Shown here piece by piece: positions 1-49,986 of a DNA stretch of 49,986 nt. Within the stretch, counting starts at the first letter, position 1. Every line of letters starts with the position of its first letter. The translations under genes were made by a program, and so were the position numbers. Source of the DNA: Bacteroidaceae bacterium (GTDB taxonomy: Bacteria; Bacteroidota; Bacteroidia; Bacteroidales; Bacteroidaceae); contig JAFSRW010000092.1 of NCBI GenBank assembly GCA_017445925.1, positions 1-49,986 on the forward strand, in the 5' to 3' direction. Under the pieces are notes generated by a model that made no database searches, had not been told where the DNA came from, and worked only from the letters and a program-made list of their open reading frames with translations.

Positions 1-120
1 CTCTTCACTCTTCACTCTTCACTTTTCACTCTTCACTCTTCACTTTTCACTCTTCATTCTTCACTCTTCACTTTTCACTCTTCACTCTTCACTCCTCACT
101 CTTCACTCTTAACTCTTCAC
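1..120. repeat. Heptamer tandem array, CTCTTCA unit, about 17 copies
   Basis: Seventeen consecutive 7-bp units fill the first 119 bases. Most are CTCTTCA, with single-base variants such as CTTTTCA, TTCTTCA, CTCCTCA and CTCTTAA. The array abuts the stop codon of the minus-strand membrane protein gene that ends at 121, and it may continue to the left of the window. It is the longest of several 7-bp-period arrays here. Confidence 0.95.
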
Positions 121-2040
121 TTAATACGACTGTATCTCTCTCAGCACGCAATAGTCCCACCAGTAGGTATCACCAAACTCTGGTTGGAGCGAGGCGCCTA
201 TCTGGTCCACATTCATTCCGCTTTGCGCATACCCCTTCATACTGCTGATAAAGGAATTGTATCGCTCCACCAACTGTGGATCTATGTGGTAAGTGGAGAT
301 AATCTCGTCGGGGCCGGTCTTCAACTCGTAATGGTAAAGCAGCATAGCTTCTTGGATATAACGCGGGAAGGGCTTGTCCGGGAAAAGGTTATGATACTGC
401 CAGACTTGTGCCCAGAAGCATTGGGTATCTTTGCTCTGGAGGCAATATGCCAAGGCTAAGTCCAGAATCTCAGGATTGTCTGTTGCCGTATGAGCCAACT
501 TATGAATCAACGTAGGCTCCACATAATAGTCGTCGCTTCCCACCATCGAGGAGCCACCGTTGTAAAGCCTCTTCACTAAGGCAAACCTTGGGCTTGATGC
601 AATAAGGGTAGTATCCTCCAGATAAGGCCGTATCTCCTTAGCCCATTCCTTTTGGAAGGTAGAACGATCCAGCAAGCGCAGGTACTTTCTTACATTATCA
701 TATTCACCGTTAATCAGGGCACAGCGGGTCAGCACTCGCAGCGCGTAGTACGAGAAGCCGTAATGCATGCTGCGCTCTATGGTCCTGCGGATGCCAAAGC
801 AGGTTTCGCCAAAGTTGTAATAGATGAAGTCGCCCGTAGTATCGCAAAGGCGAACCACGATGGAGTCGCTCATCACTGTTGGGTTTGCCGGTCGGTTATT
901 ATACTGATAGCGGTTCAGAATCTCACCCTTGTTCAGCAGAGCGATGTCGCGATACAGCACCATCATCCTGGAAGGATTGCCCTTGGCTGTACGTGCTTCG
1001 GATAACACATCGTCCCATCGTTGTTCGTCAACGGCTCGAAGCATTCTCAGCTCGGCATGATAGTTGGAATTGGTAAAATTCCTGTTGCTGACAATGTGAT
1101 AGGCACCGATGGCAACTACCAGCATCAGCACCTGACTTATCACCAAGCCGCGAACGCCAAACTTTTCATCCTTTCGTTTCCCTATCAATGGGATAAGCAA
1201 AGCAGAAAGAATCATCCACCAGAGCGGAGCCTCCAAAGCATGGTCGCGAACGGGGCCTATCTCGAAACGCTTTAATCCGAAGAGCCAGCATTCGTCGGGA
1301 CGCATCAAGGTGGTGCCGTTGGTTTCCAGCAGGGGCACAAACCCCAGCAAGGCAAGCAGCAGGATGAAGGCCTTCCAGTCCTTGCGCCAATTATCCTTGA
1401 ACATACGAAAGCCGATTAGCACCGTTGCCAGCAGGGCGTAAACGCCTAACGGATAATATAAGAGCACAGCCACCAGAATCATCTGAATATAGCCGCCGAA
1501 CTTCACCTTCCGGAAATAATCAACCGACAGCAGCAGGGCAAAGAAGAAGCCCAAACTGTGGTAGAAACTGTAGTCGATGTCCTTCATAAAGTACACCCAG
1601 TAACCCAAATGTATCTGAGTGCAAAGTAGGGCCAACAGAGGTACGAACAGCCAGAAAGTCAGTTCCAGCCTAACGTGAAACGACCGCCAAGCTACGCAGA
1701 AGCTCAGCATCCACAGCAGGATAAGCAGTGCTGCTCCGTAGGCAGGATAATAGAAGTACTGCGTCAGGTACGAGCCTGCCCACGAGAGGAAACCGCCCGG
1801 CATTCGCGTACAATGGTCGAAGTACACCATCGAGTCGTTCCAGTACCCTCGGTCTTGCATAAAATACAGGGTGTCGGCATTCTTCCCAATCAGGAAAAAC
1901 CACGCAAACACCACAAACACTACGCTATATAGTATAGGTAACAGCCAAAGGGGGAAGCGGATGTTCCTCCCCTTCTTTTCCACGCTCTCCACCTTGGGAG
2001 CCTGAACCGGCACACGCTTTTGTTTTACTTTCTTGCTCAT
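121..2040 (-). CDS. DUF6057-like multi-pass membrane protein
   Basis: The product has 639 residues. The first 25 or so are basic and Lys/Val rich, followed by about eight to ten hydrophobic segments between residues 30 and 320 (for example LWLLPILYSVVFVVFAWFF). The C-terminal half, about 330-639, is soluble, helix-rich and reminiscent of TPR-like repeats. This layout resembles the Bacteroidetes family DUF6057, whose function is not established; I recognise it by overall pattern only. The start at 2040 is supported by a consensus promoter just upstream (2049-2079). The gene diverges from the GH29 fucosidase and need not belong to its pathway. Its stop codon touches the heptamer array at the window's left end. 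A transport or envelope role would be a guess. Confidence 0.7.
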   Translation of the reverse strand: MSKKVKQKRVPVQAPKVESVEKKGRNIRFPLWLLPILYSVVFVVFAWFFLIGKNADTLYFMQDRGYWNDSMVYFDHCTRMPGGFLSWAGSYLTQYFYYPAYGAALLILLWMLSFCVAWRSFHVRLELTFWLFVPLLALLCTQIHLGYWVYFMKDIDYSFYHSLGFFFALLLSVDYFRKVKFGGYIQMILVAVLLYYPLGVYALLATVLIGFRMFKDNWRKDWKAFILLLALLGFVPLLETNGTTLMRPDECWLFGLKRFEIGPVRDHALEAPLWWMILSALLIPLIGKRKDEKFGVRGLVISQVLMLVVAIGAYHIVSNRNFTNSNYHAELRMLRAVDEQRWDDVLSEARTAKGNPSRMMVLYRDIALLNKGEILNRYQYNNRPANPTVMSDSIVVRLCDTTGDFIYYNFGETCFGIRRTIERSMHYGFSYYALRVLTRCALINGEYDNVRKYLRLLDRSTFQKEWAKEIRPYLEDTTLIASSPRFALVKRLYNGGSSMVGSDDYYVEPTLIHKLAHTATDNPEILDLALAYCLQSKDTQCFWAQVWQYHNLFPDKPFPRYIQEAMLLYHYELKTGPDEIISTYHIDPQLVERYNSFISSMKGYAQSGMNVDQIGASLQPEFGDTYWWDYCVLREIQSY

Positions 2041-2048
2041 ATCGGCTA

Positions 2049-2079
2049 CAAAAATACGATTAAGTGAGCGGAATACAAA
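2049..2079 (-). promoter_or_regulatory. Bacteroidetes-type promoter for the DUF6057-like gene
   Basis: On the minus strand TTTG (2079-2076) is followed by a 19-nt spacer and TATTTTTG (2056-2049). This matches the Bacteroidetes primary sigma consensus TTTG-N19-21-TAnnTTTG. The start codon begins 8 nt past the -7 box, so the leader is very short. Confidence 0.7.
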
Positions 2080-2102
2080 ATAAATGGTTTATTTTTTTCC
2101 CG

Positions 2103-2178
2103 AAGGAGCATTTTCGCCAGGCAGGCGGAATCATTTTTTCCTCAAAGGAGCATTTTCGCCAACTGGCGGAACCATTTT
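2103..2178. repeat. Direct repeat of about 35 bp, two copies, next to the GH29 promoter
   Basis: Copy 1 is at 2103-2137 and copy 2 at 2145-2178, a 42-bp period. Both read AAGGAGCATTTTCGCC, then a short variable stretch, then GGCGGAAYCATTTT. Each copy carries an internal dyad (CGCC...GGCG). Copy 2 ends two bases before the -33 box of the GH29 promoter, a suitable place for a regulator to bind. Confidence 0.7.
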
Positions 2179-2179
2179 C

Positions 2180-2210
2180 TTTGCATTTTTCCCGCTTATT
2201 TGTATCTTTG
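2180..2210 (+). promoter_or_regulatory. Bacteroidetes-type promoter for the GH29 gene
   Basis: TTTG (2180-2183), a 19-nt spacer and TATCTTTG (2203-2210) match the sigma consensus exactly. Transcription would start about 2215, giving a leader of roughly 17 nt before the ATG at 2232. This rules out the longer upstream reading of the frame. Confidence 0.8.
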
Positions 2211-2231
2211 CAAAAACAAAATCAGAAAAAT

Positions 2232-3851: not shown

Positions 3852-3863
3852 AATGATTCAACT

Positions 3864-4000
3864 TTCTGAAGTAGTTAAGTAGTCAGAAGTTAAGTAGTTA
3901 AGCCAAATGTGAGTAGGCAGAAAGAGACGAAAATGGTATCGGCTTAACTACAGTCTGAAAGGACGAGCGAAGCGATAACTACATAACTTCTTAACTACAA
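3864..4000. repeat. AAGTAGTTAAGTAG-type simple repeats and a dispersed 20-mer
   Basis: The gap between GH29 and the HD gene is filled with degenerate copies of AAGTAGTTAAG and TTAACTAC. Within it, the 20 bases at 3961-3980 (GGACGAGCGAAGCGATAACT) recur exactly, inverted, at 37844-37863. No terminator or clear promoter is visible here. Confidence 0.65.
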
Positions 4001-4014
4001 AGAAGTTGAGCAAC

Positions 4015-4887
4015 ATGCGAAACTTGAATAAAATGATTAAAGAATATCTTGTTTTGAGTCGCAGTAACGGAACAACCCGTACTGGCTCACCATACGCTGT
4101 ACTGAAAGTCGCCGATCTGATAGAAACCATAAACATTTCAGTCTGGGACCTTCAGCCCACAGCCGAACCCAAAGTCGGGCAACTGGTCAGTTTCTACGCC
4201 ATAAAAGATAATGCGGGAAAGAAATCGTGTTCCGTTACCGATATGAAGCCGGGAGCCATGCCTCTGCTGGACCATCCTCTGTATAATCTGCTCCCCCGCC
4301 CCATCCGTCGGGATGTTTGGGATAACACCATCAGCAAACTCATCGGTTTCTGTTCCGACGAGAGTCTCATCCCTATCATCCGCGATTTTGCCGACAAGCT
4401 ATACGCTCCCTACTGCAAATACCCTGCTGCCACCAGCGTACACCATGCCTTCCCCGGCGGTCTCACCAATCACACCTACCAGATGCTACACATGCTGGAG
4501 GGCCTATACCCGTGTCTGCCTTACCAGATAAAGGTGGAACGTTGCATACTGGCTATCCTTTTCCACGATTATGGAAAAGTTTACGAGTACAATACCGAGG
4601 GAGAGACGCAAGCTGACATGTATCTGCTGGGACACATCTTCATCGGTGCCCACAAACTACAGAATGTATTGGAGCAACAAGGCGTTGACGGAGAAGAGAT
4701 TAAGCGTATCATCCACGTCATTCTCGCTCACCACGGGACACGTGAATTCGGAAGTCCCGTATTGCCTTGTACCCAGGAAGCCATTATCGTTAATATGCTG
4801 GACAACCTCAGCGCCAAGACCGATGCTATAGAGGGAACCGGCAACATGGAGTCCTGCTCCCCCTTAGGCACTCGTGTAGTCAAGTAA
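4015..4887 (+). CDS. YhaM-like HD-domain hydrolase/exoribonuclease
   Basis: The product has about 290 residues. The N-terminal part (about 1-95) looks like an OB-fold nucleic-acid-binding domain. From about 135 comes an HD phosphohydrolase domain with ligands in [27 protein letters not shown] and [12 protein letters not shown]. This order matches the YhaM family of 3'-5' exoribonucleases in Firmicutes and their Bacteroidetes relatives; activity is inferred from the family. The start is ambiguous: TTG 4006, ATG 4015 and ATG 4033 are in frame, and ATG 4015 keeps the whole OB region. It lies between two fucosidase genes on the same strand, with GH95 starting 41 nt downstream. It is probably a housekeeping gene cotranscribed with GH95 rather than part of glycan breakdown. 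Confidence 0.8.
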
Positions 4888-4928
4888 TAGTATTGCCTTT
4901 CTTGTGTAGAAAAATAAATCCTTCCTTT

Positions 4929-7535: not shown

Positions 7536-7546
7536 CTCCCTGTTAC

Positions 7547-9001: not shown

Positions 9002-9021
9002 TTTATATAAATCATTTACAG

Positions 9022-12132: not shown

Positions 12133-12161
12133 GATGATTATTAATACTCGTCAACAAACAA

Positions 12162-12222
12162 CTCGTCAACTCGTCAACTTGTCAACTTGTCAACTCGTCA
12201 ACTTGTCAACTCGTCAACTCGT
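12162..12222. repeat. Octamer tandem array CTYGTCAA, 7 copies, covering the GH2 stop codon
   Basis: Seven consecutive units CTCGTCAA or CTTGTCAA lie at 12162-12217, followed by a partial unit. The array begins in the gap after GH2 and runs into its coding sequence, so the TGA stop (12200-12198) and the last codons are made of repeat. Confidence 0.92.
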
Positions 12223-14651
12223 AGCGTCAATGTCTTTGTCAGTTTCCTATCTGCATCTCTTACCTTTAGTGTGATGGTGCCTGGCTGTTTACTGCTTCGC
12301 ACAACTACCACAAGTTGACCTTTGAACAGCTTCATGGTTGGTTGGGTGAAGGGTTCCAGGCTGGTGGCGTCGCCATTGCAGACAGCTTGAAATTTTCCAG
12401 CACCAGTGACTTCAAAGGTCAGTTGGTCATCGGCTTCTGGTACGAGGGTTCCCTTTGCATCCGTCAATGAGACGGTAACGAAAGCCATGTCATCGCCGTC
12501 AGCCTTCAAGAACGGAGCATCGTGCTGCGTCCATACGTCAAGTTGCAACTTGGCAGCTTTCCCAGCGGTTCTCAACACTTTTTCTCCTGCGGCATTGCCG
12601 TCAGCATCATAGACCACCACCTTCAGTTCGCCCGGTTCATACTTCACATCGTTCCAACGCAGACGATAACGGTCCAGGCGGTTGGCCTCTTTCATTTGTT
12701 CATTTTCTGAATCTTTCATTTTTGTCCTTCGGCCCTGGCTCTTTCCATTCACAAAGAGTTCTGCACTGGGATAGTCCGTGTAGCAATAGACGGGTGTCAC
12801 CTCGCCACGGCGTTCCTTACCCCACGTCCAGTGCGGCAGCAGATGGATGGTGTGGTCTGTAGTGTTCCAGTGTGAGCGGTACAGGAAGTAGCGGTCCTTG
12901 GGCAGACCAGCCAGGTCGCAGATGCCGAAGTAGCTGCTGCGCGAGGGCCAGTAGTCATCGTATGGCGTAGGCTCGCCCAGATAGTCGTAGCCCGTCCATA
13001 CAAACTCGCCAATTACCCACTGCTTATCATCCTGCCAACGCCAGTCGTCATCAGGCAGATTCGACCACCAACAATGCTCCACATCATAGCTTGAGCACTG
13101 GGCATCAGGGTGGTTGGGCTTGTCGGTAGGTGTTACAGGGAAATAATAAGCCCCACGCGATGATACGGTAGAAGCCGTCTCGCTACCCAGCACGAAGCCC
13201 TGCGTAAGCGTATCGTGGGCCTTCTGGTATACATTCAGACGGTAGTTCAGACCTGGTACATCCATGGCCTGCATGAAACCACTCCTCAAAGCATTATCCC
13301 CCTGGTCGCAGCCATGTGTCACGGGTCGTGTGGGGTCCAGCGCATGGCAGAGGCCCTGCAGGTGGATGGCAGTCTGTCGTCCTTCCTCGCTCCACTGTTC
13401 AGGTATCTCATTGCCGATGCTCCACATCACAATGCACGGATGGTTGCGATGGGCGCGCACCAGATTGGTGATGTCGCGCTCGTTCCAGTCGCGGAAGAAG
13501 CGGGAATAGCCGTTCTTACACTTAGGATAGTTCCACATATCGAAACTCTCGGCCATCACCATCATACCCAGCGAGTCGCAGATATCCATTTGCCACTGCG
13601 AGGGCATATTATGCGAGGTTCGGATAGCATCGCAGCCCATCTCCTTCATCATCTTCACTTGTCGGATGAGGGCAGCTTTGTTCACGGCAGCACCCAAGGG
13701 GCCGAGGTCGTGGTGCAGGCAGACACCCTTTATCTTACGCGTCTGGCCGTTCAGCTGGAAACCGTGTTCTTTCGATACGCGAACGGTGCGGATGCCCACG
13801 TTGACGGATGTCTCATCCACGATGCGACTGTCTTCTGTCGTCAGCCTTGCCACCAACTTATATAGATAAGGTGATTCGGGCGACCACAGTTTAGGCTCCT
13901 TCACCGTCAGTTTGGCGTTAATACTGTTCCTGCGGTTAGGGTCGGCAGGCTTGACTGCAGCCACTTCCACCCCGTCGGCATCCAGCAACGAGAAGGCGTA
14001 CCGTATGCCATCAGCAGCCTGTTCCACATCCATGTCTATCTGCAGTTCTGCTTTATCCTGGCTAATGGTCATGGTACGACAGAATAGGCTCCAGTCATCG
14101 ATATGGCATTTGTCAGTCAGCAATAGCTTCACCGGCCTATAGATGCCTGCACCAGGATACCATCGCGAGCTTTCCTCCACATTCTTCAGGCTTACCTCCA
14201 AGAGATTCTCGCCTGGCTTCACCAGCTTCGTCACGTCTAAGCGGAAGGTATTGTAGCCGTATGCCCAATAGCCCGCCAGCTTACCGTTCACCTTTACTGT
14301 GGGTTCAGACATGGCTCCGTCGAACACCAGGCAGGCGTGGCCGTCAAAGTTCTGCGGAATGGTAAACACGCGCTTGTAAAAGCCCTCACCTATCCAGGGC
14401 AGTGCACCAGACCGGCCAGTCTTCTCCGTTGCTTCCGTCTCACCGTTCTGCACAATGGCTACCGTTTGCATGTCCCACTTCTTATCGAAGGGGCCGCTGA
14501 TGGCCCAGTCGTGCGGCACGCTTACCTCTTGCCAGTTCTGCTGGTCGCGTGAAAACTGCCAGCCCTCATTTAGCATGGTTTCTGTGCGGCTCTGGGCAGA
14601 TACCGCCAGCGAGCTGGCAGCAACCAATAGTATAAGAAGAACACGTTTCAT
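12198..14651 (-). CDS. GH2 beta-galactosidase-type glycosidase
   Basis: The product has 817 residues. Residues 1-20 form a signal peptide. Then come a jelly-roll sugar-binding domain (about 25-180), an immunoglobulin-like domain (190-290), and a TIM barrel (about 295-600) with the acid/base Glu415 in MWSIGNEIPEQW and a probable nucleophile Glu491 in VLGSETAST. A conserved VIGEFVWTGYDYLGEPTPY follows, then a DUF4982-like domain and an Ig-like C-terminal domain. The closest functional class is Bacteroidetes beta-galactosidase; GH2 also includes arabinopyranosidase and glucuronidase activities, so the substrate is open. It starts 4 nt after the fucO stop, which implies cotranscription. Its 3' end is written by an octamer array, giving the tail LRVDELTS. 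Confidence 0.87.
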   Translation of the reverse strand: MKRVLLILLVAASSLAVSAQSRTETMLNEGWQFSRDQQNWQEVSVPHDWAISGPFDKKWDMQTVAIVQNGETEATEKTGRSGALPWIGEGFYKRVFTIPQNFDGHACLVFDGAMSEPTVKVNGKLAGYWAYGYNTFRLDVTKLVKPGENLLEVSLKNVEESSRWYPGAGIYRPVKLLLTDKCHIDDWSLFCRTMTISQDKAELQIDMDVEQAADGIRYAFSLLDADGVEVAAVKPADPNRRNSINAKLTVKEPKLWSPESPYLYKLVARLTTEDSRIVDETSVNVGIRTVRVSKEHGFQLNGQTRKIKGVCLHHDLGPLGAAVNKAALIRQVKMMKEMGCDAIRTSHNMPSQWQMDICDSLGMMVMAESFDMWNYPKCKNGYSRFFRDWNERDITNLVRAHRNHPCIVMWSIGNEIPEQWSEEGRQTAIHLQGLCHALDPTRPVTHGCDQGDNALRSGFMQAMDVPGLNYRLNVYQKAHDTLTQGFVLGSETASTVSSRGAYYFPVTPTDKPNHPDAQCSSYDVEHCWWSNLPDDDWRWQDDKQWVIGEFVWTGYDYLGEPTPYDDYWPSRSSYFGICDLAGLPKDRYFLYRSHWNTTDHTIHLLPHWTWGKERRGEVTPVYCYTDYPSAELFVNGKSQGRRTKMKDSENEQMKEANRLDRYRLRWNDVKYEPGELKVVVYDADGNAAGEKVLRTAGKAAKLQLDVWTQHDAPFLKADGDDMAFVTVSLTDAKGTLVPEADDQLTFEVTGAGKFQAVCNGDATSLEPFTQPTMKLFKGQLVVVVRSSKQPGTITLKVRDADRKLTKTLTLRVDELTS

Positions 14652-14655
14652 GTTT

Positions 14656-15977: not shown

Positions 15978-16005
15978 AATTGACAATGGACAGTTGACAA
16001 TTGAG
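15978..16005. repeat. Heptamer array AATTGAC-like, 4 copies
   Basis: Four consecutive 7-bp units read AATTGAC, AATGGAC, AGTTGAC and AATTGAG. The unit family is the same as that found in frame inside the LicD gene at 41122-41156. Confidence 0.75.
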
Positions 16006-17516: not shown

Positions 17517-17558
17517 GTTTACCGTTTACTTCTGACGGTTTACCGTTTATGCTTGACC
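17517..17558. repeat. Heptamer array GTTTACC-like inside the chimeric sorting domain
   Basis: The units GTTTACC, GTTTACT, TCTGACG, GTTTACC, GTTTATG and CTTGACC follow one another at a 7-bp period. They encode the loop between the two conserved strands of the sorting domain of the chimera. Confidence 0.7.
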
Positions 17559-21896: not shown

Positions 21897-24809
<2,913 letters not shown>

Positions 24810-37759: not shown

Positions 37760-38040
37760 ATTAACTGAAGTTTCGGAAGTTTAATGGGGAGTTAAAATGG
37801 AAGTATAATTGGGAGTTAAAATGGAAGTTAAAGAAGATAGAGAAGTTATCGCTTCGCTCGTCCATTCGGACAGGAGTTAAAGACGATAGTTATACACGTG
37901 CAGACAAGAAGTCTTAAGTAACGTCGGAGCGAAGCGGTAACTTCGGAGGGCGAAAGCCCGGTAACTCCTAAGCGAAGCGGTAACTTCCTAGGCCGTAAGG
38001 CCGATAACTCCTTAATTCCAATAACTCCCAAAACTTAAAT
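37760..38040. repeat. GGGAGTTAAAATGGAAGTTA-type and CGAAGCGGTAACT-type repeats
   Basis: The gap after GH106 holds degenerate repeats of GGGAGTTAAAATGGAAGT and of AAGCGAAGCGGTAACTTC. It also holds an exact inverted copy (37844-37863) of the 20-mer at 3961-3980. I see no gene in 37612-38068. Confidence 0.7.
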
Positions 38041-38068
38041 GAATTAATCCGAGTCATCCGTGTTCACA

Positions 38069-38530: not shown

Positions 38531-38557
38531 CCCCCTCTCCGACTCCCCCAAAAGGGG
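38531..38557. repeat. GC-rich palindromic repeat
   Basis: CCCCCTCTCCGACTCCCCCA then AAAGGGG is another copy of the dispersed GC-rich family, standing alone in the gene-free region. Confidence 0.75.
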
Positions 38558-39011: not shown

Positions 39012-40499
39012 TTAGTTCTTGAGTTCCTGCGAGGGGTCTTCTTTCAAATAGGTACTTAGGAAAGACATGGTCGTAATAAGATGCATAAGGCCAGCCTTGG
39101 GAAGTTTTGCCAGCTCGCTCAGAATCGGTAGGGCGTTGATTTCATGATAGTGTACGTTAGACATTGTTCCCCCGTTGCTTAGTGCTTCGTAACACTTACG
39201 CATATTTTCCACAGGGATGCCGTCGTCCTTCTTGCCATGTATCAGGTAGATTTCTGTCGTGGGCAGCCATCCTGACAGGTTGTTCTGCTCAGCCAGAATG
39301 CGCAACAGCACCTGCGTTTTCGGGTTAGTACTATCAAGATGGCTGTTCTTGGTCATCATATCGGGGGCGATAATCCCAGAAAGCGTCTTCGGGTTCGGCA
39401 TGTTAATGTCAGATCCAATGATGTTGGCGAAGTATCTGGCCTCTGCCTCATAGTATGACATTGTGCGACCTTCGCATTCCACCTGCACATTGAGAAGGTT
39501 CGGGTTGACGAAATCCTGGGCCTGATAGCCGTATAACTGTTCAGGAGAGAGTGCCGCGAGCGAGAAAACCATCGATTTGCTCAACATGGCGTTGAATTCG
39601 GGATGGTCGCTGAAATAGCGGATGCACCCTTCAAAATCCACCGGTCCGAAACCAGTATAGACGGTACTCAGCCTGACAGCCTGACGGAACGACGCGCTGG
39701 CCTCGGTCTCGTAATATTTGGCAAATGCCAAGGGAACAGCGGCTCCCAGCGAGCAACTGGTGCAGATAGTGTGACCGTCGTCGGACAGTGTGACGCCATG
39801 ATTTCGCATCACTTCTAGGGCAGCCATTGTGCAGTCGGCCATCTGACGGGCCAGCACATTCGACGAGACCGTGCAATAGAAGTCCTTATCCAGATTGACA
39901 CCCAATCCCTGGCCATCGGGCTGGATGACGGCTTCGTTGAAGTATGCGCGCAGTGCCCACATATCAAGAATCTGGGAAGGTGCCTCACTTACATCGACCA
40001 ATGCATGGTGCATGTTCAGTGTCAGCGATTTCACCTGGTGGCCGATGCCTTTCGTCTTATGATTGGGGAAGGTAACACGGCCCGACAATACAACATCCTC
40101 GCCACGGGCCGACTTGCTGCGGTAATTGAAACCATACGATTCCATCTGCCAACAGTGGTCTTCCTGTTTGTCCAGCCCCGCCTCGGCCTCAAATAGCCTA
40201 TCCATAGCCGGAGCCTGGGCGGCGATAAAACTACCGAAGACCTTCCTCAATATTATTACCACACCCCGGAAAACGTTTGTTACAACAGGAGAGGAGACTC
40301 CCCAATCTTCTTCGGTTACCAACTTACCGTTATTCGTGATGCTTACAAAAAGCTCAGGCTGAAACTGCAGACTATCCGTTTCCGCTAGCAGAATTTCATT
40401 ACTAACACAGTTATTATTGTTATTGTTATCGTCGTCTTTGCAACCCACCACGAGCAGCAGCGTGAGAACTATCACTGTATGGAAAAAAATCTTTCTCAT
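39012..40499 (-). CDS. Alpha/beta-hydrolase-like lipoprotein
   Basis: The product has 495 residues. The signal peptide ends in VVGC, so it is a lipoprotein; after the Cys comes an acidic/Asn run (KDDDNNNNNN) encoded by trinucleotide repeats. The hydrolase part (about 115-480) has an HHALVD segment near the first strands, a nucleophile-elbow-like CTSCSLGAAVPLAF, and late acid/His candidates in IYLIHGKKDDGIPVENM and VHYHEINAL. The fold resembles secreted lipase/esterase-like hydrolases; the substrate is unknown. Its start overlaps the LicD stop by 4 nt, making it the last gene of the six-gene surface operon. It could process the surface lipid or ester groups made upstream. Confidence 0.75.
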   Translation of the reverse strand: MRKIFFHTVIVLTLLLVVGCKDDDNNNNNNCVSNEILLAETDSLQFQPELFVSITNNGKLVTEEDWGVSSPVVTNVFRGVVIILRKVFGSFIAAQAPAMDRLFEAEAGLDKQEDHCWQMESYGFNYRSKSARGEDVVLSGRVTFPNHKTKGIGHQVKSLTLNMHHALVDVSEAPSQILDMWALRAYFNEAVIQPDGQGLGVNLDKDFYCTVSSNVLARQMADCTMAALEVMRNHGVTLSDDGHTICTSCSLGAAVPLAFAKYYETEASASFRQAVRLSTVYTGFGPVDFEGCIRYFSDHPEFNAMLSKSMVFSLAALSPEQLYGYQAQDFVNPNLLNVQVECEGRTMSYYEAEARYFANIIGSDINMPNPKTLSGIIAPDMMTKNSHLDSTNPKTQVLLRILAEQNNLSGWLPTTEIYLIHGKKDDGIPVENMRKCYEALSNGGTMSNVHYHEINALPILSELAKLPKAGLMHLITTMSFLSTYLKEDPSQELKN

Positions 40500-41467
40500 T
40501 TGTTTGGTGTTGTATGTGGATAATATTTGTTACGAGCTCGAAGCTCCTCCAACGTAAGCCTATGGTCTATATCGAAGAAGTAATGGGGATGGCTGACGCG
40601 TTTCTCCTCGGGCGGCAATTGCATATAGTCGCCATAAAGCTTGCGCAGATAAGCATCGTAGGCACGAGGAATAATAAGCGTGGTGTCCTCGAAAGGTACT
40701 TCTATCACATCGTGGAACCACTCCGACTGAAAGATTCTTCCTTCCCACTGGGTTACACAAACACATTTGGGCCCAGGGCCATTGTGTTTGTACGTTTCCT
40801 CGTACTGCTGGAAGGCCTGCAAGTATTTCTGGGGATTACGACTGCGCCACTTGCTGAGCACCTGAACACCCAAACGATGTACATCGCCAGCAAAGAGGGA
40901 CTTGGCCATATCCGCAAACGTATAATGGCTGACGGCATTCAGGTATTTGTCGAAGTAATAATGGCTACGGTACTGGCGTGCAGTAATCACCTCGTCAGCC
41001 TCATCAAACTCATCCAAGGGGAAAATATCTATGCTGACACCAAACAGAAAAGGCAGATGCCGGAACTCCCAAATGGTACTACGGCAGTCGGCAATCTTGG
41101 CGAAAGGCATGTAGTACTTGGAATTGATAATTGATAATTGACAATTGACAATTGGCTGTTTAGAGTTTAGAGATGGCTGTTGGGTGTTCCAATTGAGGAG
41201 CTCGTAGCCGGTGCCTTGGAACGAGGGGGCTAACTGCAGCAACTGCTCATAGTCCTTACGAGGCATGTAGAGGTCGATATCATCGTCCCAAGGAATGAAA
41301 CCTTTATGGCGGATAGCACCTAAGACGGTTCCGCCACAACCTATATAGCGAAGGTTATGCCGCTGGAAGAATTCCTTGGCAAAAAGGAACACTTCCAGCA
41401 GGCGATTCTTTAAGAGATCTCCCGACCTTCCCTCTAAGGGAGGAGTTTGTTTCTTTTCTTCTTTCAT
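40496..41467 (-). CDS. LicD-family phospho-alcohol transferase
   Basis: The product has 323 residues. The LicD family signature is present: RYIGCGGTVLGAIRHKGFIP followed by WDDDIDLYMPRKDYEQLL (about 40-80), with the metal-binding Asp cluster. Family members transfer phosphocholine, phosphoethanolamine or similar groups from a CDP carrier to surface sugars. A heptamer array (41122-41156) is translated in frame as QPIVNCQLSIINSKYY and may be an insertion in a loop. A GC-rich palindrome (41418-41446) encodes the N-terminal PPLEGRSGDLL. Both neighbouring genes overlap it by 4 nt. The linked cytidylyltransferase gene supports a CDP-linked donor. Confidence 0.85.
   Translation of the reverse strand: MKEEKKQTPPLEGRSGDLLKNRLLEVFLFAKEFFQRHNLRYIGCGGTVLGAIRHKGFIPWDDDIDLYMPRKDYEQLLQLAPSFQGTGYELLNWNTQQPSLNSKQPIVNCQLSIINSKYYMPFAKIADCRSTIWEFRHLPFLFGVSIDIFPLDEFDEADEVITARQYRSHYYFDKYLNAVSHYTFADMAKSLFAGDVHRLGVQVLSKWRSRNPQKYLQAFQQYEETYKHNGPGPKCVCVTQWEGRIFQSEWFHDVIEVPFEDTTLIIPRAYDAYLRKLYGDYMQLPPEEKRVSHPHYFFDIDHRLTLEELRARNKYYPHTTPNK
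41122..41156. repeat. Heptamer array AATTGAY, 5 copies, in frame in LicD
   Basis: The units AATTGAT, AATTGAT, AATTGAC, AATTGAC and AATTGGC follow one another, and two GTTTAGA units lie just beyond (about 41158-41171). The array lies in a protein segment between the conserved LicD start and HLPFLFGVSIDIFPLDE. Confidence 0.93.
41418..41446. repeat. GC-rich palindromic repeat at the LicD 5' end
   Basis: TCTCCCGACCTTCCCTCTAA then GGGAGGAG belongs to the dispersed GC-rich family and encodes the N-terminal residues PPLEGRSGDL of LicD. Confidence 0.6.
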
Positions 41468-42510: not shown

Positions 42511-42516
42511 ACTTTT

Positions 42517-42981: not shown

Positions 42982-43011
42982 AACTTATTTAAATAAACAA
43001 TGATCAATTCT

Positions 43012-43071
43012 CAACGATAACGTTAACGTCAACGTCAACGATACTTTCAACTCTCAACTCTCAACTCTCGA
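43012..43071. repeat. AACGTC hexamer repeats and CTCTCAA heptamers at the acyltransferase stop
   Basis: An AACGTC-type stretch (43018-43040) is followed by CTCTCAA, CTCTCAA and a variant CTCTCGA (43051-43071). The TGA stop (43056-43054) and the last codons (WESRVES) of the acyltransferase are built from the heptamer. The rc of the hexamer stretch also encodes VNVNV in the large GLUG protein near 24985-25000. Confidence 0.88.
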
Positions 43072-44067
43072 CTCCCATCTTCCACTTAACCATGGGATGC
43101 GTTCTATGAACGGGACCATCCAACTACACATACAAAAGACGGCAGGAAGGAGGATGAAAACCTCCTCCGGCTTATTCCAGATGCTACGTCCGAAACTCAA
43201 ATGCATGAACTTATAGAAGTAAAGCATGGGGTAATGAGAGATGAAGTAGACCATACTATGCTCGCCTATATAGCAAATTATGGGAACGCGAGGCAGGTTC
43301 AGACAAGACAACATGCCCACTAGTCCGCATATTACCAATACCATATTTAAGATGGTTATAGGAAAACTTCCCTTAAAATCATTGATGGACATCATATATT
43401 CTCCGTGCCAAGTTGCGTTCAATACCACGAACAACAGTACCATTACGACAGAAGCCCAGAGAATGGTCTGACGGGAGAACCTGTTCATGATACGCTTCCA
43501 CAACATACCCAAGTAGAAAAAGAAGATGCCCATAAATACGTTGTTGACACTCATCCACAAGGGGTTACCATTGAGGAAAAGCCAATATCCCATGAGCGGG
43601 AAGAGAGCCGCAATCCAATGAAGCCCCTTTACCTTCTCAATAAAATGAACCACCAGATATGTGACGAAGAAGGAGAAAAGGAACCAGGTTGGACGATTGC
43701 CATAGAAACTGCTGGTTTCCCAGATGTGCGACAAATATAATGGTTCTATGGGCTTATGGAATCTGTCTAACAGAGTAGGAAGGAAGGCAAAGTAAATAGC
43801 CAATCCTATAATGCCTGCCGACATATATGGAACGAAAAGTCGTTTGGTGCGGTCGATGATATAATCCTTGGTGGGACGGTTGTTCACCCCCTTGTTGAAA
43901 TATCCAGCCTTAAAGAAGAAGAACGACATGAAGTAGAACGTCCACTCCATGACACGCGTCCACCACTGAACCTCTCCCATACCACAGAAGTCCATAACGT
44001 GCAGGCTTATCATACGAATGATGCAAAGTCCACACAGAAAATCGAACGTATGATTTCTATTCTTCAT
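43054..44067 (-). CDS. Acyltransferase family 3 membrane protein (copy B)
   Basis: The product has 337 residues from the ATG at 44067. It has about ten hydrophobic segments and starts with NRNHTFDFLCGLCIIRMISL, the family's first helix. Later shared stretches are FYFMSFFFFKAGYFNKG, KRLFVPYMSAG, PTWFLFSFFVTYLVVHF and YIGEHSMVYFISHYPMLYF. Family members add acetyl or other acyl groups to surface sugars using a cytoplasmic acyl-CoA. It is closely related to copy A, whose end it overlaps by 11 nt, so a tandem duplication is likely. The start codon is set by the alignment with copy A. Confidence 0.85.
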   Translation of the reverse strand: MKNRNHTFDFLCGLCIIRMISLHVMDFCGMGEVQWWTRVMEWTFYFMSFFFFKAGYFNKGVNNRPTKDYIIDRTKRLFVPYMSAGIIGLAIYFAFLPTLLDRFHKPIEPLYLSHIWETSSFYGNRPTWFLFSFFVTYLVVHFIEKVKGLHWIAALFPLMGYWLFLNGNPLWMSVNNVFMGIFFFYLGMLWKRIMNRFSRQTILWASVVMVLLFVVLNATWHGEYMMSINDFKGSFPITILNMVLVICGLVGMLSCLNLPRVPIICYIGEHSMVYFISHYPMLYFYKFMHLSFGRSIWNKPEEVFILLPAVFCMCSWMVPFIERIPWLSGRWESRVES

Positions 44068-45085
44068 TTGCAACCTTATTAACTGTCTTAGGCCATCTGC
44101 CACTTAACCAAGGAACACGTTCGATGTACGGAACCAACCAAGTACAGATGCTGATTATCAGCATGAACACCAAGATGAAATCATCCCAATGCTTATTCAT
44201 TCCCCTGCCTGCTACACCATGTACCATAGTATAATACAGCAGAATGGGATAGTGAAGCACAAAGTAAACCATACTATGCTCGCCGATATACGCCACAAAA
44301 GGCACACGGAAAGGAGGCATCGACAAGAGAACACCTGAAATTCCACAAAGGGCACAGGTGATATTAACGACGGCTCCCCAAGGGCGGTGTACCCAATGGT
44401 TCAGGCTCATATCATACTCGCCGTGCCAATAATGGTTCCCGAACAGGAAGACCAAAAGCAAAACCAAAGAGACAAGCGTAAAAGTATGTTTGGGAACTTT
44501 ATGCAGCAACCAATGCCAACATTTTCCTAAATAAAAGAAGTAAACGCCCATAAAGACATTACCCAGACTCATGGGCACCTGAATCTTATTATCTGCCAAT
44601 GCCCAACTTGCGAGCGGAAAGAAGATGGCAAGATATGCCAGATAAGGAACCTTCTGCATAAAATGCACCATCACATACATACAGAAGAAGGAGAACAGGA
44701 ACCAAACGGGCGGATTGCCATAGAAATGGCTCTGCATCCAAACATGACTCCAAGTCAGTTTATCCCAATACCGATGCAACTCATTAGGGAACAGCATCAG
44801 TATGCCAAAATAAAAGATACTGCCAATGGCACCCCAAGCCAGATAGGGGATAAACAAGCGTTTGAACTTGTCCTTCAGGAAGAAACGGGTTGGTGCGGAA
44901 ATGCTTTTGTTGAAATAACCTGCCTTGAAGAAAAAGAAGCAGATGAAGAAGAAGGTCCACGCCATCAACTTGTCGAACCAAAACGTGCAACCTCTGAATC
45001 CACACATACTTATGCAATGCAAGACTATCATCCTAAGAATGCATAGTCCGCAAAGCAAGTCAAAAGCATGATTCCTTTCTTTCAT
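44057..45085 (-). CDS. Acyltransferase family 3 membrane protein (copy A)
   Basis: The product has 342 residues from ATG 45085. It starts ERNHAFDLLCGLCILRMIVL and shares with copy B the stretches FFFFKAGYFNKS, KRLFIPYLAWGA, PPVWFLFSFFCMYVMVHF and YIGEHSMVYFVLHYPILLYY. ATG 45085 is favoured over an open upstream extension because a -7 box (45097-45090) lies four bases away and the family begins here. It is the first gene of the six-gene surface operon and divergent from the glycosyltransferase at 45215. The two copies may acylate different positions or sugars. Confidence 0.87.
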   Translation of the reverse strand: MKERNHAFDLLCGLCILRMIVLHCISMCGFRGCTFWFDKLMAWTFFFICFFFFKAGYFNKSISAPTRFFLKDKFKRLFIPYLAWGAIGSIFYFGILMLFPNELHRYWDKLTWSHVWMQSHFYGNPPVWFLFSFFCMYVMVHFMQKVPYLAYLAIFFPLASWALADNKIQVPMSLGNVFMGVYFFYLGKCWHWLLHKVPKHTFTLVSLVLLLVFLFGNHYWHGEYDMSLNHWVHRPWGAVVNITCALCGISGVLLSMPPFRVPFVAYIGEHSMVYFVLHYPILLYYTMVHGVAGRGMNKHWDDFILVFMLIISICTWLVPYIERVPWLSGRWPKTVNKVANEE

Positions 45086-45089
45086 GATG

Positions 45090-45118
45090 CAAAAGTATGA
45101 AAAACATTGAACATTCAA
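45090..45118 (-). promoter_or_regulatory. Promoter of the surface operon, near-leaderless
   Basis: The minus strand reads TTG (45118-45116), an 18-nt spacer and TACTTTTG (45097-45090), then CATC and the start codon ATG at 45085. Transcription would start on or within a few bases of the ATG. Confidence 0.65.
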
Positions 45119-45197
45119 CATTGAACATTGAACATTTTTATGGAATTCGACACAAAATCCAAAATTATGAATTGTGAATTGTGAATTATGAATTAAA
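45103..45197. repeat. Two heptamer arrays between divergent surface operons
   Basis: Units AACATTG, AACATTC, AACATTG, AACATTG, AACATTT fill 45103-45137. Units AATTATG, AATTGTG, AATTGTG, AATTATG, AATTAAA fill 45163-45197. The arrays cover the -33 regions of both divergent promoters. Confidence 0.93.
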
Positions 45198-45210
45198 AAC
45201 ATTAATTTTG
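45179..45210 (+). promoter_or_regulatory. Promoter of the glycosyltransferase operon, near-leaderless
   Basis: TTG (45179-45181), a 21-nt spacer and TAATTTTG (45203-45210) are followed by CATC and ATG at 45215. The layout mirrors the divergent promoter, with the same TTTGCATCATG ending. Confidence 0.65.
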
Positions 45211-45214
45211 CATC

Positions 45215-46227
45215 ATGAAACAAGCACTTGTGGATGTTTCCGTACTGATTTTGTTCTTCAACAGGCCAGAACCGTTGAAGCAAGTCTTTGCGCAAGTACA
45301 GCAAGCACGGCCCGCACGACTCTTCCTTTACCAAGACGGTCCCCGCTCTGAAAAAGATATGGAAGGCATACTTGCCTGCAGGGAAGTTGTAAGCCAGATT
45401 GACTGGGACTGCGAGGTGCATCAGTTGTACCAGGAACGCAACTACGGATGCGACCCCTCGGAATTTATTTCCCAAAAATGGGCCTTCAGCCATACGGACA
45501 AATGTGTAGTCCTGGAAGATGATGATGTGCCTGCCGTTTCATTCTTCACGTTCTGCAAGGAAATGCTGGACCGTTATGAGAACGATGAGCGTATTACCAT
45601 GATTTCCGGATTCAACGTAGAGGAACAGACAGCCGACGTGAAGGAAGACTATTTCTTCTCGACCAACTTCAGCATCTGGGGATGGGCTTCATGGAGAAGA
45701 GTCGTTGACCAGTGGGATGAGCACTACACCTGGATGGATGATCCACAAGCGGTTGCTCAGATTAAAGCCATCATAAAGGAACGTGGCTACAGGAATGATT
45801 TCCTACCTATGTGCGAACAACACAGGGCGCAAGGCAAAGCATTCTACGAGACTATCTTCTGGGCTCATCTGTTGATGAGCAACGGGCTCTGCATTGTTCC
45901 TCGGCGTAACATGATTAATAATCTGGGCGCTACAGCAGGCAGCACGCATTTTGGAGGTTCGCTGGAGACTATGCCTCGTGGATATCGCCGCATCTTCACC
46001 ATGAAGCGGTTCGAGCAGGAAACTCCTGTACAGCATCCTTCCTATATTATGGAGCATGTGGCCTACCGAAAGAGAGCCTATAAGATAATGGGGTGGATGA
46101 ATCCGTGGGTGAAAATTGGGCGTTCATTTGAAGAACTGTTCCTGAACCTTCGCTACGGCAACTTCCGCTTTATCCTTCAATCCCTTAACAAACGCATCCA
46201 TAAATGGATGGGAAAGACTGCATACAA

Positions 46228-46231
<4 letters not shown>
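45215..46231 (+). CDS. Glycosyltransferase, GT-A type
   Basis: The product has 338 residues. It begins with a GT-A-like sugar-nucleotide fold (VSVLILFFNRPEPLKQVFAQ) and contains a DXD-type motif CVVLEDDDVPAVSFF (about 104-118). A conserved FSIWGWASWRRVVDQWD stretch follows. The pattern resembles GT2-like enzymes of LPS or capsule clusters; donor and acceptor are unknown. It heads the plus operon, and its stop overlaps the next start as ATGA. Confidence 0.8.
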
Positions 46232-47350
<1,119 letters not shown>

Positions 47351-47364
<14 letters not shown>

Positions 47365-48157
47365 AACGCAAAATACATCACTCCCGCTTATAACCATAGC
47401 CACCGTCACCTACAATGCAGGGGCTACCTTACAGCGCACATTAGACAGTGTGGCGGCTCAGGATTATAATAGGATTGAGCATCTGATTATCGACGGACTT
47501 TCCACAGACAATACGCTCAGCCTTGTACAGCGGTACGTGGAGCAGAATAATAACAGGCACCAGATTCGTTTGACCAGTGAGCCTGACGACGGGCTTTACG
47601 ATGCTATGAATAAGGCGCTGACGCTGGCTGCAGGAGATTACATTGTATTCCTGAATGCGGGAGATAAATTGCATAGCCAATATACCATTTCGGAGATAGT
47701 GAAATGTGCCCAGTGGCGTAAAGGACGCAACAGCAATCCTGCCATTCTGTATGGCGAAACAGATTTGGTGGATGATGAAGGGAAATTCGTTCGGCACCGT
47801 CGTCTTACCGCCCCAGAAGCACTGACATGGAAAAACTTCCTTAGTGGCATGAGAGTTTGCCACCAGTCGTTCTACGTCCGTTCCGACATAGCAAAAAGCG
47901 AAAGTTACAATCTGAATTTCCGCTACTCTGCCGACTACGACTGGTGCATCCGTATCATGAAGAAAGCGGCCCAACGAAGATTAAAAATAACAAATACCCA
48001 TCAGATTCTTACGGATTACCTCAACGAGGGCATGACTACCAAGAACCACCGTAAGTCTCTCGTAGAGCGACTGAAACTGATGGCCCAGCATTACGGATGG
48101 GCACAGGCTATAGCCGCCCACTGCTGGTTCGTAATAAGATCCATCATCAAAAAATAA
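47351..48157 (+). CDS. GT2-family glycosyltransferase
   Basis: The product has about 268 residues. The GT2 start LITIATVTYNAGATLQRTLD is followed by HLIIDGLSTDNT, EPDDGLYDAMNKALTLAAGD and the DXD-like YIVFLNAGDKLH, all typical of GT2. The second half includes HQSFYVRSDIA and FRYSADYDWCIRIMKKA. The start (ATG 47351 or 47345) lies within the end of the GT4 gene, so the two are translationally linked. The acceptor is unknown. Confidence 0.87.
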
Positions 48158-48161
48158 AAAA

Positions 48162-48236
48162 GCCTCTCCCCCCGCCATCTCCAAAAGAGAGGGAGCAATG
48201 GTTCAAGAGGTTCAAGAAGTTCAAAAGGTTCAAGAT
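48162..48236. repeat. GC-rich palindromic repeat and 9-bp array before proC
   Basis: GCCTCTCCCCCCGCCATCTC then CAAAAGAGAGGGAG (48162-48195) is a member of the GC-rich family. It is followed by four 9-bp units GTTCAAGAG, GTTCAAGAA, GTTCAAAAG and GTTCAAGAT (48201-48236). This separates the glycosyltransferases from proC; no promoter is clear. Confidence 0.85.
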
Positions 48237-48259
48237 TTAATAGTAAATAGCAAACCAAT

Positions 48260-49036
48260 ATGAAAATAGCAATCATAGGAGCAGGAAACATGGGAGGTGC
48301 CACTGCCAGAGGATTGGCACAAAGTCAGCATGTAAATGCAAAAGATATCTGTATCAGCAACCCAAGCAAGGGCAAACTGGATGCCATTAAGGCAGAATTC
48401 CCAGAGATAAACATCACGCAGGACAATATGGAATGTGTAAAGGATGCCGATATGGTCATCTTAGCTGTTAAACCTTGGAAAGTAGAAGAGGTTGCTTGCG
48501 AAATAGCTACTCACCTAAAGAACGGAAACGTAATTGTGGGAAGTATGGCTGCTGGCACAAGCACCGAAAAGATAGAAACCATGTTTGGTCAACATCCCAT
48601 CTACACTATCATTCCTAACACAGCTATTGCCGTACGCCAGAGTATGACCTTCATCGCCCACAAGAACACTACACCTGAGATGGACAATGAGATTCTGACC
48701 ATTTTCAAGGAGTTGGGTGAAGCCATGATTATAGAAGAACGACTGATGGGAGCCGGAATGGCTCTTGCCAGTTGTGGCATAGCCTACGCTATGAGATACG
48801 TCCGCGCTGCCACCGAAGGAGGGGTAGAACTTGGTATGTACGCCAAAGATGCCCAACATATAGTTGAACAGACGCTTTTAGGAGCTGTAAAACTGCTTCG
48901 TGCCAACAACAGTCACCCTGAGGCAGAAATAGATCGCGTTACAACACCAGGTGGTATCACCATTCGTGGACTGAACGCTATGGAGGAGAACGGATTTACC
49001 AACAGCGTTATTAAAGGACTGAAGGCAAGTAAATGA
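48260..49036 (+). CDS. proC: Pyrroline-5-carboxylate reductase
   Basis: The product has 258 residues. It reduces 1-pyrroline-5-carboxylate to L-proline with NADPH in the cytoplasm. The Rossmann motif is IAIIGAGNMGGATARGL at the N-terminus, followed by ADMVILAVKPW. The C-terminal dimer helix region holds ALASCGIAYAMRYV and the signature VTTPGGITIRGLNAMEENG. Length is normal. Its stop overlaps the next start by 4 nt (ATGA), so it is cotranscribed with the CDP-alcohol phosphatidyltransferase although their functions differ. Confidence 0.93.
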   Translation: MKIAIIGAGNMGGATARGLAQSQHVNAKDICISNPSKGKLDAIKAEFPEINITQDNMECVKDADMVILAVKPWKVEEVACEIATHLKNGNVIVGSMAAGTSTEKIETMFGQHPIYTIIPNTAIAVRQSMTFIAHKNTTPEMDNEILTIFKELGEAMIIEERLMGAGMALASCGIAYAMRYVRAATEGGVELGMYAKDAQHIVEQTLLGAVKLLRANNSHPEAEIDRVTTPGGITIRGLNAMEENGFTNSVIKGLKASK

Positions 49037-49941
49037 AACTGAAGGAAAAAGTCTTGCAAACAATGAAGTCGACCGATACGGAAAGTCGGTTCGAACTTTA
49101 CGTCACCCGAACGCCTGGCTATCTTTGGGCCCGCCTGTTCCAGAAGTTGGGCGTCCACCCTATAGCCGTTACCCTGATGAGTATCGTCATTGGGGCTGCC
49201 AGCGGCTATTTCTTTTACCTTCCTACCCTAAAAATGAACCTCATTGGTATCCTCCTACTGATTTGGGCTAACTGGTACGATTGCGCAGACGGACAACTGG
49301 CTCGTATGACAGGCAAGAAGACGCTCATTGGCCGTATCCTTGACGGCTTTGCCGGAGATGTCTGGTTCTTCTGTATCTATCTGGGCCTTTGCCTAAGGTT
49401 GACACCAGAGTGGGGTATATGGATATGGTTGTTGGCAGCGTGGGCTGGAATTCATTGTCACGGTCGCCAATGCGCTATTGCCGATTATTACCGCAACATA
49501 CACTTGTGGTTCTTTTTAGGCGAGGAAAAAAGCGAACTGGCAACCAGTCGACAGGAAGAAAAAGAATACCATAGCCTGAAATGGAAGAGTAGTGAATGGT
49601 TCCACAAACTCTACCTATTCTTTTATATAAGGTATACCAAGAGTCAGGAAGCGCAGACTCCCCGTTTTCAAGAACTCTTCCATGCTATACAGGAAAAGGG
49701 AAGCATCTCGGAGGATATGCGACAGCGTTTCCGTGCAGACAGCCTTCCGCTGATGCCCATCACCAATATTCTAACCTTCGACACCCGTGCTGGAGTACTG
49801 TTCCTTTCTGTCCTGATAGGAATGCCCTGGATATACTTTATCTTCGAAGCAACCGCATTGGAACTCCTCCGCTACTGGATGATTCATACGCACGAAACCT
49901 TCTGTCAGAAATACCTTGATGAGGTAATTAATAATTCATAA
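49033..49941 (+). CDS. CDP-alcohol phosphatidyltransferase
   Basis: The product has 302 residues, an integral membrane protein. The family motif D-x2-DG-x2-AR-x8-G-x3-D-x3-D is read as DCADGQLARMTGKKTLIGRI then LDGFAGD (about 84-110), with all metal ligands present. Members transfer a phospho-group from a CDP-alcohol to another alcohol, making phospholipids or phospho-linked head groups. About five or six hydrophobic segments are seen. The last codons and the stop lie in a heptamer array (tail EVINNS). It follows proC with a 4-nt overlap. Given the cytidylyltransferase and LicD genes nearby, a shared CDP-alcohol is possible but not shown. Confidence 0.87.
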   Translation: MKLKEKVLQTMKSTDTESRFELYVTRTPGYLWARLFQKLGVHPIAVTLMSIVIGAASGYFFYLPTLKMNLIGILLLIWANWYDCADGQLARMTGKKTLIGRILDGFAGDVWFFCIYLGLCLRLTPEWGIWIWLLAAWAGIHCHGRQCAIADYYRNIHLWFFLGEEKSELATSRQEEKEYHSLKWKSSEWFHKLYLFFYIRYTKSQEAQTPRFQELFHAIQEKGSISEDMRQRFRADSLPLMPITNILTFDTRAGVLFLSVLIGMPWIYFIFEATALELLRYWMIHTHETFCQKYLDEVINNS

Positions 49942-49986
49942 TTCATAATTCACAATTCAGAATTCACAAGTCATAATTCATAATTC
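49933..49986. repeat. Heptamer array AATTCAY, 7 copies, over the last stop codon
   Basis: The units AATTCAT, AATTCAT, AATTCAC, AATTCAG, AATTCAC, AAGTCAT and AATTCAT run from 49933 to 49981, and a partial unit reaches the window edge. The TAA stop of the preceding gene (49939-49941) is part of the array. Confidence 0.95.

Follow-up and report, generated by a model that had tools for sequence, protein, structure and literature searches.

Cyanobacteria, Xanthomonas, Beggiatoaceae, Haemophilus and a few Bacteroidetes are already known to carry tandem arrays of seven-nucleotide units (PMC4679880, PMC4692102, PMC2651432, PMC4476775). A survey has also noted a high density of short tandem repeats in the Bacteroidota (PMC12699852). 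A polymerase-contact hypothesis for the step of seven has also been published, as cited in PMC4692102, and the bacterial heptamer excess has so far been backed by hypothesis only. In this study we analysed the heptamer arrays of a Bacteroidaceae bacterium, starting from a window that is one entire contig of 49,986 bases (JAFSRW010000092.1) and extending to the rest of its genome (3.3 Mb in 100 contigs, estimated completeness 84%, labelled G000 in comparisons with relatives). The explanation that we tentatively place first, while giving it somewhat less than an even chance as a whole, is that, in one rumen Bacteroidales lineage, these arrays form a family of short heptamer modules that is dispersed and changes fast.

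The related TAACTGA direct repeats are known from marine Beggiatoaceae, some cyanobacteria and five Bacteroidetes, with indels mostly in 7-nucleotide steps between two close strains, and their mobility has been considered (MacGregor 2015, PMC4679880). Our arrays share with them the many short arrays, mostly intergenic with some inside genes, the stop codons in all frames of one strand, and the orthologous gaps without repeats. In that account, however, one word is favoured and its one-base variants are rarely repeated, whereas about 50 words occur in our sample, and coding copies lie mainly at protein ends, whereas many of ours lie within enzyme genes. TAACTGA itself is the word of none of the 144 arrays in 895 kb of our genome. 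The GGGNATC and GGGGAYT heptamers of Xanthomonas and Nostoc form G-quadruplexes, with which a preference for four units was noted to match (Rehm 2015, PMC4692102). They too are genome-wide, mostly non-coding and variable in length and sequence between close relatives, and their preferred copy number is four. In our arrays G-tracts are rare, with three G or C in a row in 4 of 50 words and 6 of 144 arrays, which is not the composition of a G-quadruplex family, and yet three to five units prevail. This similar copy number without G-tracts weakens quadruplex formation as a general reason for about four units.

Three other systems offer partial parallels. In the stem-loop repeats of the Nostoc trnL intron P6b, word classes also swap at one site while the step stays seven; there the setting is a structured RNA stem with two 7-nucleotide classes, whereas here the swap is found in coding and intergenic DNA at several sites (PMC4476775). 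Borg tandem repeats are likewise fast-evolving, independently arising, placed both between and inside genes and flanked by partial repeats, but those in coding sequence have units divisible by three, whereas with a unit of seven divisibility by three is possible for the net insertion alone (PMC9879509). Rickettsia palindromic elements resemble our arrays as short DNA inserted in frame in unrelated metabolic genes, but they are palindromic and about 150 bp long (PMC10969869), against heptamer arrays of 25-33 bp here that by eye look like direct repeats. The initial annotation of the window had likened its arrays to the heptanucleotide repeats of cyanobacteria. This likeness stands in kind, as tandem 7-nucleotide units scattered over many loci place them among the heptanucleotide short tandem repeats, and fails for the host, which is a rumen Bacteroidales by Pfam content and nearest genomes. 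In the open-licence literature we found no report of this vocabulary, of these boundaries or of in-frame insertion into conserved enzymes, the related TAACTGA case being covered by PMC4679880. Since words change between close relatives at a constant step and often a constant length, with coding copies bound to the frame, single-step and multi-unit models of array formation become distinguishable.

Step and vocabulary of the arrays

The step of seven dominates at every scale of the genome that was sampled. The window contains 11 exact runs of at least 12 period-7 matches, compared with 2 at period 8 and none at periods 1-6 and 9-13; among multiples, periods 14, 21 and 28 gave 4, 5 and 2 runs and periods 16 and 24 gave 1 and 2, and the expectation from 20 first-order Markov resamplings was at most 0.05. 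In 203 kb from other contigs, picked by number and not listed for the word searched earlier, there were 37 period-7 runs of at least 10 matches against 9, 1 and 2 at periods 6, 8 and 9, with 13, 19 and 17 at periods 12, 14 and 21. A mismatch-tolerant finder applied to 895 kb returned 144 period-7 arrays against 15, 17 and 10 at periods 6, 8 and 9, an 8- to 14-fold excess, and one resampled copy of the same sequence, used as control, returned none at periods 5-9. Some later stretches of the 895 kb lay on contigs already known to hold one word, and the 203 kb sample is the cleaner of the two. The 59 and 28 arrays found at periods 14 and 21 in the larger sample are probably to a large extent the same arrays as those of period 7. 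An excess of period 7 over periods 6, 8 and 9, whose absence would have counted against the initial annotation, is therefore present in the part of the genome covered. It persists even inside coding sequence, where a step of seven breaks reading frames (56 exact period-7 runs of at least 11 matches, and 3, 5 and 3 at periods 6, 8 and 9).

Three close species carry the same excess, with 48, 3, 7 and 4 arrays at periods 7, 6, 8 and 9 in 263 kb. Twenty stretches (386 kb) from 20 other species of the genus, two of them on contigs known to hold arrays, gave 14, 1, 4 and 9; the excess is thus not a feature of the genus as a whole. Among other families of the order, 16 stretches (197 kb, one stretch fully masked) held 1 period-7 array.

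As these are metagenomic contigs, an assembly artefact has to be considered. Contig ends fall in arrays in 5 of 61 cases compared with 1.45% of random places (p = 0.002); array lengths at contig ends are therefore unreliable and long arrays may have been lost. Both ends of the window lie inside arrays because the window is an entire contig, and the real lengths of these two arrays probably exceed the assembled ones. That the arrays as such are artefacts is very improbable, since eight assemblies from several projects share one of them, in exact or decayed form, at one site in a glycosyltransferase gene, and a genome of another family assembled in 9 contigs (G153) has similar arrays.

The words used by the 144 arrays of the 895 kb sample, on which lengths and strand classes were also counted, form a limited vocabulary. 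Only 50 distinct words occur, compared with a mean of 120 after letters are shuffled within words, and the commonest, AACATTG, occurs 24 times, while no word exceeded 5 occurrences in 200 shuffles. TCAA or its complement is found in 70 arrays where 16 were expected, and the commonest words inside genes mostly fit TCAAYNN on the coding strand. A pattern of three AACATTG units, allowing one mismatch, matched 123 times in G000, 106 in G015, 49 in G061, 11 in G067 and once in G063; matches overlap, so that a long array scores several times. The pattern matched 32 of 81 genomes of the genus and its backward control matched once in one genome, a control that is uninformative for AACTCTC, the word being its own mirror. 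Across the phylum 11 of 395 genomes matched; the backward control matched 4 of 395, and these matches suggest arrays of that other word. The only other genome of the phylum with many matches was G153, with 82, and its arrays (L275-L277), up to 71 bp in the 60 kb read, are similar in look, which could reflect shared ancestry, transfer or convergence.

These counts do not support the view that the unit sequence changes freely at constant length, or that a fixed step operates rather than the spread of one sequence. Words recur far more than free change would allow, and the commonest is found at many loci in the same start phase, with the graded abundance given above for G000, G061, G067 and G063. 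A fixed step combined with the spread of, or a preference for, particular words is what these results suggest.

Array length is also constrained. There were 25 arrays below 25 bp, 30 of 25-27 bp, 21 of 28-30 bp, 38 of 31-33 bp, 9 of 34-36 bp, 7 of 37-40 bp and 14 longer ones, so that a typical module has four or five cores 7 bases apart (25-33 bp) and numbers fall abruptly past 33 bp; part of the drop beyond 35 bp could reflect long arrays lost in assembly. Length modulo 7 was 4, 5 or 6 in 76 of the 119 arrays of at least 25 bp, whereas simulated arrays of whole units gave 0 or 1 in 87% of cases. Arrays therefore tend to start and stop within the same 4-6-base core, as in an array built of five AACT cores and 3-base spacers. 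AACATTG has a fixed start phase: 14 of 24 arrays share it and 12 of 24 share an end phase (for the start, p = 7e-7 had the phase been named beforehand, or about 5e-6 as it was picked afterwards), and in printed examples the flanks of these arrays appear by eye to be unrelated. Arrays and flanks read by eye look like direct repeats only, no systematic search for inverted repeats having been run.

Arrays in genes and at orthologous sites

Placement was determined with our own dicodon gene caller. Gene interiors (30 genes) hold 38 of the 144 arrays; another 7 come within 30 bases of a gene end, 29 overlap one, and the remaining 70, 8 of them at stretch edges, are intergenic. This corresponds to 72 arrays per 100 kb between genes and 4.8 inside them, a 15-fold difference. 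Stop codons occur on one strand or both in 138 of the 144 arrays, where unit shuffling gives about 84%. Among the 38 arrays inside genes, 31 have stops on the antisense strand only, 4 on the sense strand only, 2 on both strands and 1 on neither. Between co-directional genes the same two orientations stand at 13 to 10, with 13 of 36 arrays in other classes (Fisher p = 0.01 for 31 vs 4 against 13 vs 10). A role of the arrays as three-frame stop signals was dropped in view of this mixed orientation.

The intergenic density, the position of some arrays directly upstream of genes and the translational role proposed for TAACTGA repeats in Beggiatoaceae (PMC4679880) could point to selected sites for a DNA- or RNA-binding regulator. 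We regard this as improbable. Orientation between co-directional genes is mixed, more than a quarter of the arrays are inside genes, and several of these genes encode housekeeping enzymes. Of 154 array-to-species comparisons at orthologous positions, 27 showed the same word, 83 another word and 44 no scored array (decayed ones included); these comparisons overlap heavily, are non-independent and come mostly from this one region.

A Pfam scan of 10 of the 30 array-bearing genes matched all ten, to histidyl-tRNA synthetase (HisS), CobD/CbiB, a class I/II aminotransferase, a CobQ-like amidotransferase, an ArsP permease with an HMA domain, ketoacyl synthase, pseudouridine synthase, MiaA, a nucleotide-base phosphoribosyltransferase and a PrsW protease. 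HisS and MiaA match solved structures, against which the array of MiaA is an insertion and that of HisS is not. At one locus (L092) three neighbouring genes, of which two have matches to cobalamin-synthesis families, hold six heptamer arrays within 3 kb.

Comparison with relatives, at one genome per species, upheld the expectation that arrays would differ between them, and did so through both word changes and empty sites at orthologous loci. In the glycosyltransferase gene of the window the word differs between species. Its loop carries AACTCTC in this genome and in RUG14681, and the same with the first units altered in RGIG6721; every unit reads AACTGTC in RUG12069 and AATTCTC in SRR12081302 bin 49, RGIG9995 has AACTTTC with one altered unit, RUI473 a decayed array, and RUG13701 AATTCAY together with a GC-rich hairpin. 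Net lengths differ by 0, 18 and 48 nucleotides, and none of the eight genomes shows a frame break across the array. Of the 6 differences from RUG12069, 4 occupy one and the same unit position, in four units; the word is thus rewritten en bloc at a fixed site. No array was present there in distant species (36 of the 40 loci read; the other four are those of this genome, G067, G063 and G061). Split matches in six distant species had raised the idea of array-driven frameshifts in this gene, and the DNA shows divergent loops without arrays.

The LicD gene of the window gives a second case. Its product has 19 extra residues in this genome, an in-frame insertion made up of the AATTGAY array and a short AAACTCT run, and there are 21 extra residues in RUG14681 and 17 in RGIG9995, with different contents, and none in RGIG6721. 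In RUG13701 (L242) the frame is broken in both the glycosyltransferase and the LicD genes, which could be decay, an off state or an assembly error. Heptanucleotide tracts have been named as potential mediators of phase variation in Haemophilus influenzae (PMC2651432), and the arrays in these two genes could be contingency loci, where gain or loss of units toggles the surface-polysaccharide genes of the window. This possibility seems to us about as slim as that of regulator sites. In every genome compared, the glycosyltransferase can be read in frame through its array, and the break in RUG13701 lies upstream of the array; arrays are also found in the genes for HisS, MiaA, CobD/CbiB, the CobQ-like protein, ketoacyl synthase and pseudouridine synthase; and Haemophilus influenzae tracts mostly have 13-38 units (PMC2651432), more than most of the arrays here.

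Of the 61 genomes searched, MiaA loci were retrieved from 30, and 25 of these were read. The loop in question has 11 residues in 20 genomes, 7 in two, 19 and 25 (without arrays) in two, and 21 in G000, which alone among the 25 has an array. The ten extra codons of G000 equal the length of this 30-nucleotide array; growth by single 7-base steps would have gone through frameshifts. LicD and MiaA, two unrelated genes, thus carry insertions that keep the frame and whose sites are empty in relatives, although the LicD gene of RUG13701 is out of frame around its insertion.

Intergenic sites behave in a similar way. The gap before the reductase gene of the window holds five words in eight species, AAACAGT (in three), AAAATTG, AAAGTCT, AACATTG and AACCGCT, while this genome has the nonamer GGTTCAAGA. 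Upstream of the gene at 45215 the array is 33-34 bp long throughout, with AATTATG in this genome, G061 and RGIG9995 and AAAATTG in RGIG6721. The array overlapping the acyltransferase gene is missing at the same site in RGIG6721 and RGIG9995, and the gap of the AATTCAY array at the contig end is almost empty in G061.

Copying and slippage as origins

To account for these arrays we tentatively prefer copying primed on the core. A module would be written in one multi-unit event by DNA synthesis, which would prime on a 4-6-base core and copy an array in 7-base register, either from another array or from itself. Words could thereby move from locus to locus and take each other's place at a given site, and selection would then clear the copies that disrupt the frame of a needed gene or introduce stop codons into it. 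Of this account, we infer the priming, the copying and the enzyme involved. Copying is favoured because words are repeated, the commonest has a fixed start phase and lengths fall sharply, and also because in-frame insertions are found without frameshifted intermediates and words change at constant length.

Local birth and turnover by slipped-strand synthesis is a possible alternative that we consider somewhat less probable. A polymerase-related bias to 7-base steps would drive growth from a local seed, repeated gain and loss would homogenise the units, and the common words would be those most prone to slip. Private words, among them that of MiaA, are consistent with this, and the MiaA loop of G061, AACGGTCAGCAG, resembles by eye the unit of G000 and may represent such a seed. 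Ends on the same 4-6-base core are expected from slipping between short direct repeats, and length changes at some sites are explained. Isolated two-copy duplications of 7 bases show no excess (in intergenic sequence, 18 at period 7 compared with 34 at period 6 and 7 at period 8); target-site duplication by a transposon that makes 7-bp duplications was dropped as a source on this account, and the peak must therefore arise in growth beyond two copies, as slippage would have it. On the other hand, slippage does not predict that the commonest word shares its start phase at 14 of 24 loci or that lengths drop abruptly after 33 bp, and arrays in coding sequence would need frameshifted intermediates.

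Several observations weigh against core-primed copying. As local birth predicts, 29 of the 50 words occur once, and the difference between species in sampled arrays of AACATTG is not significant (24 of 144 compared with 3 of 48, p = 0.09). Only 40 of 146 arrays (a set that took in four added chosen stretches) start and finish on the same four bases, although this is predicted only for lengths of 4 modulo 7. The other five words examined are less fixed in start phase: AATTATG shares a phase at the start of 5 and at the end of 6 of its 11 arrays, AAGAGTG in 5 of 8 ends, and AAAGTTG (7 arrays) has no clear start phase. The array segment of HisS aligns to the solved structure without net insertion, so that some arrays must have replaced sequence. 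The LicD pieces that flank the insertion in RUG13701 are in different frames, showing that not every copy is in frame, and arrays before the reductase gene measure between 21 and 87 bp, a spread expected of ordinary slippage. No other array with the MiaA word, at up to one mismatch, is present in the assembled genome, which is 84% complete, and so no surviving donor was seen. Y1 transposases (PF01797, in 6 of 20 genomes) and reverse transcriptases (PF00078, in 9 of 20) were rejected as linked enzymes, as the presence of neither follows array richness among the 20 genomes.

The arrays are a source of new in-frame protein segments. A further, unlikely extension of the copying idea is that a dedicated templated writing process, unlike a transposase or ordinary slippage, places modules of 25-33 bp (four or five cores in 7-base register, with a species-specific vocabulary) in intergenic DNA and in loops of housekeeping enzymes and rewrites them in place. 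If this were true, templated writing would seed the proteome with heptapeptides such as NSQLSTL.

The window and its other repeats

Arrays of the window were detected with Tandem Repeats Finder (Table 1), which recovered all the period-7 arrays of the initial annotation, two of them as weak calls, together with its octamer and nonamer arrays.

Table 1. Tandem arrays and other repeats of the 49,986-base window
Feature	Position	Strand	Context
CTCTTCA array, 17.3 units	1..121	+	contig end; assembly probably broke there
Imperfect tandem duplication (41-bp)	2093-2178		
Octamer CAACTCGT array, 8 units	12159..12222	+	overlaps 3' end of glycoside hydrolase family 2 gene 12198-14651
AATTGAC array, weak (80% matches, score 40)	15978..16004	+	intergenic
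GTTTACC array, weak (65% matches, score 31)	17517..17549	+	intergenic
GC-rich hairpin	18470		
GC-rich hairpin	18539		
AACTCTC array (found as GAGTTGA, 100% matches)	21945..21977	-	reads NSQLSTL, near C terminus of gene 21897-24728
Imperfect tandem duplication (43-bp)	37918-38012		
AATTGAY array (AATTGAC/T)	41122..41154	-	inside LicD-family gene 40496-41467
GC-rich hairpin	41426		
TCAACG array, short, period 6	43011-43040		directly adjoins AACTCTC array
AACTCTC array (found as ACTCTCA)	43043..43074	+	overlaps 3' end of acyltransferase gene 43054-44103
AACATTG array	45103..45136	+	upstream of divergent genes on both sides
AATTATG array	45163..45195	+	upstream of gene at 45215
AACTCTC array, five AACT cores, 32 bp, 100% matches	46976..47007	+	inside glycosyltransferase gene 46204-47364
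Nonamer GGTTCAAGA array	48200..48235	+	before pyrroline-5-carboxylate reductase gene
AATTCAY array (found as TAATTCA)	49925..49986	+	other contig end

By Pfam, the genes of the window include glycoside hydrolases of families 43, 106 and 2 and a fucosidase, as well as a surface-polysaccharide cluster with LicD, acyltransferases and glycosyltransferases. The nearest named genomes, at 85-90% identity for one glycosyltransferase, are metagenome-assembled genomes of uncultured Bacteroidales, Bacteroidaceae or Prevotellaceae, some of them from rumen or reticulum samples according to record titles. Scans of the window with Rfam and for transfer RNA genes gave no match, nor did a plasmid search with 10 kb of it. 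The NSQLSTL segment is placed between GRKV and KKGVYI, and the domain around it resembles a secretion-tail domain.

A dispersed GC-rich hairpin of the CCCTCCC..GGGAGGG type was found 44 times in the 895 kb sample, compared with 5 and 13 in two controls, and 22 of the 44 copies are inside called genes. Beyond the window, examples lie in the glycosyltransferase gene at L242 and the LicD gene at L195. The hairpins are real as a class; as companions of the arrays they were set aside, with no clear enrichment nearby (5 of 44 within 100 bp, where 11% of intergenic sequence is that near). In RUG13701 and RUG14681, GC-rich hairpins and heptamer arrays are found at common insertion sites.

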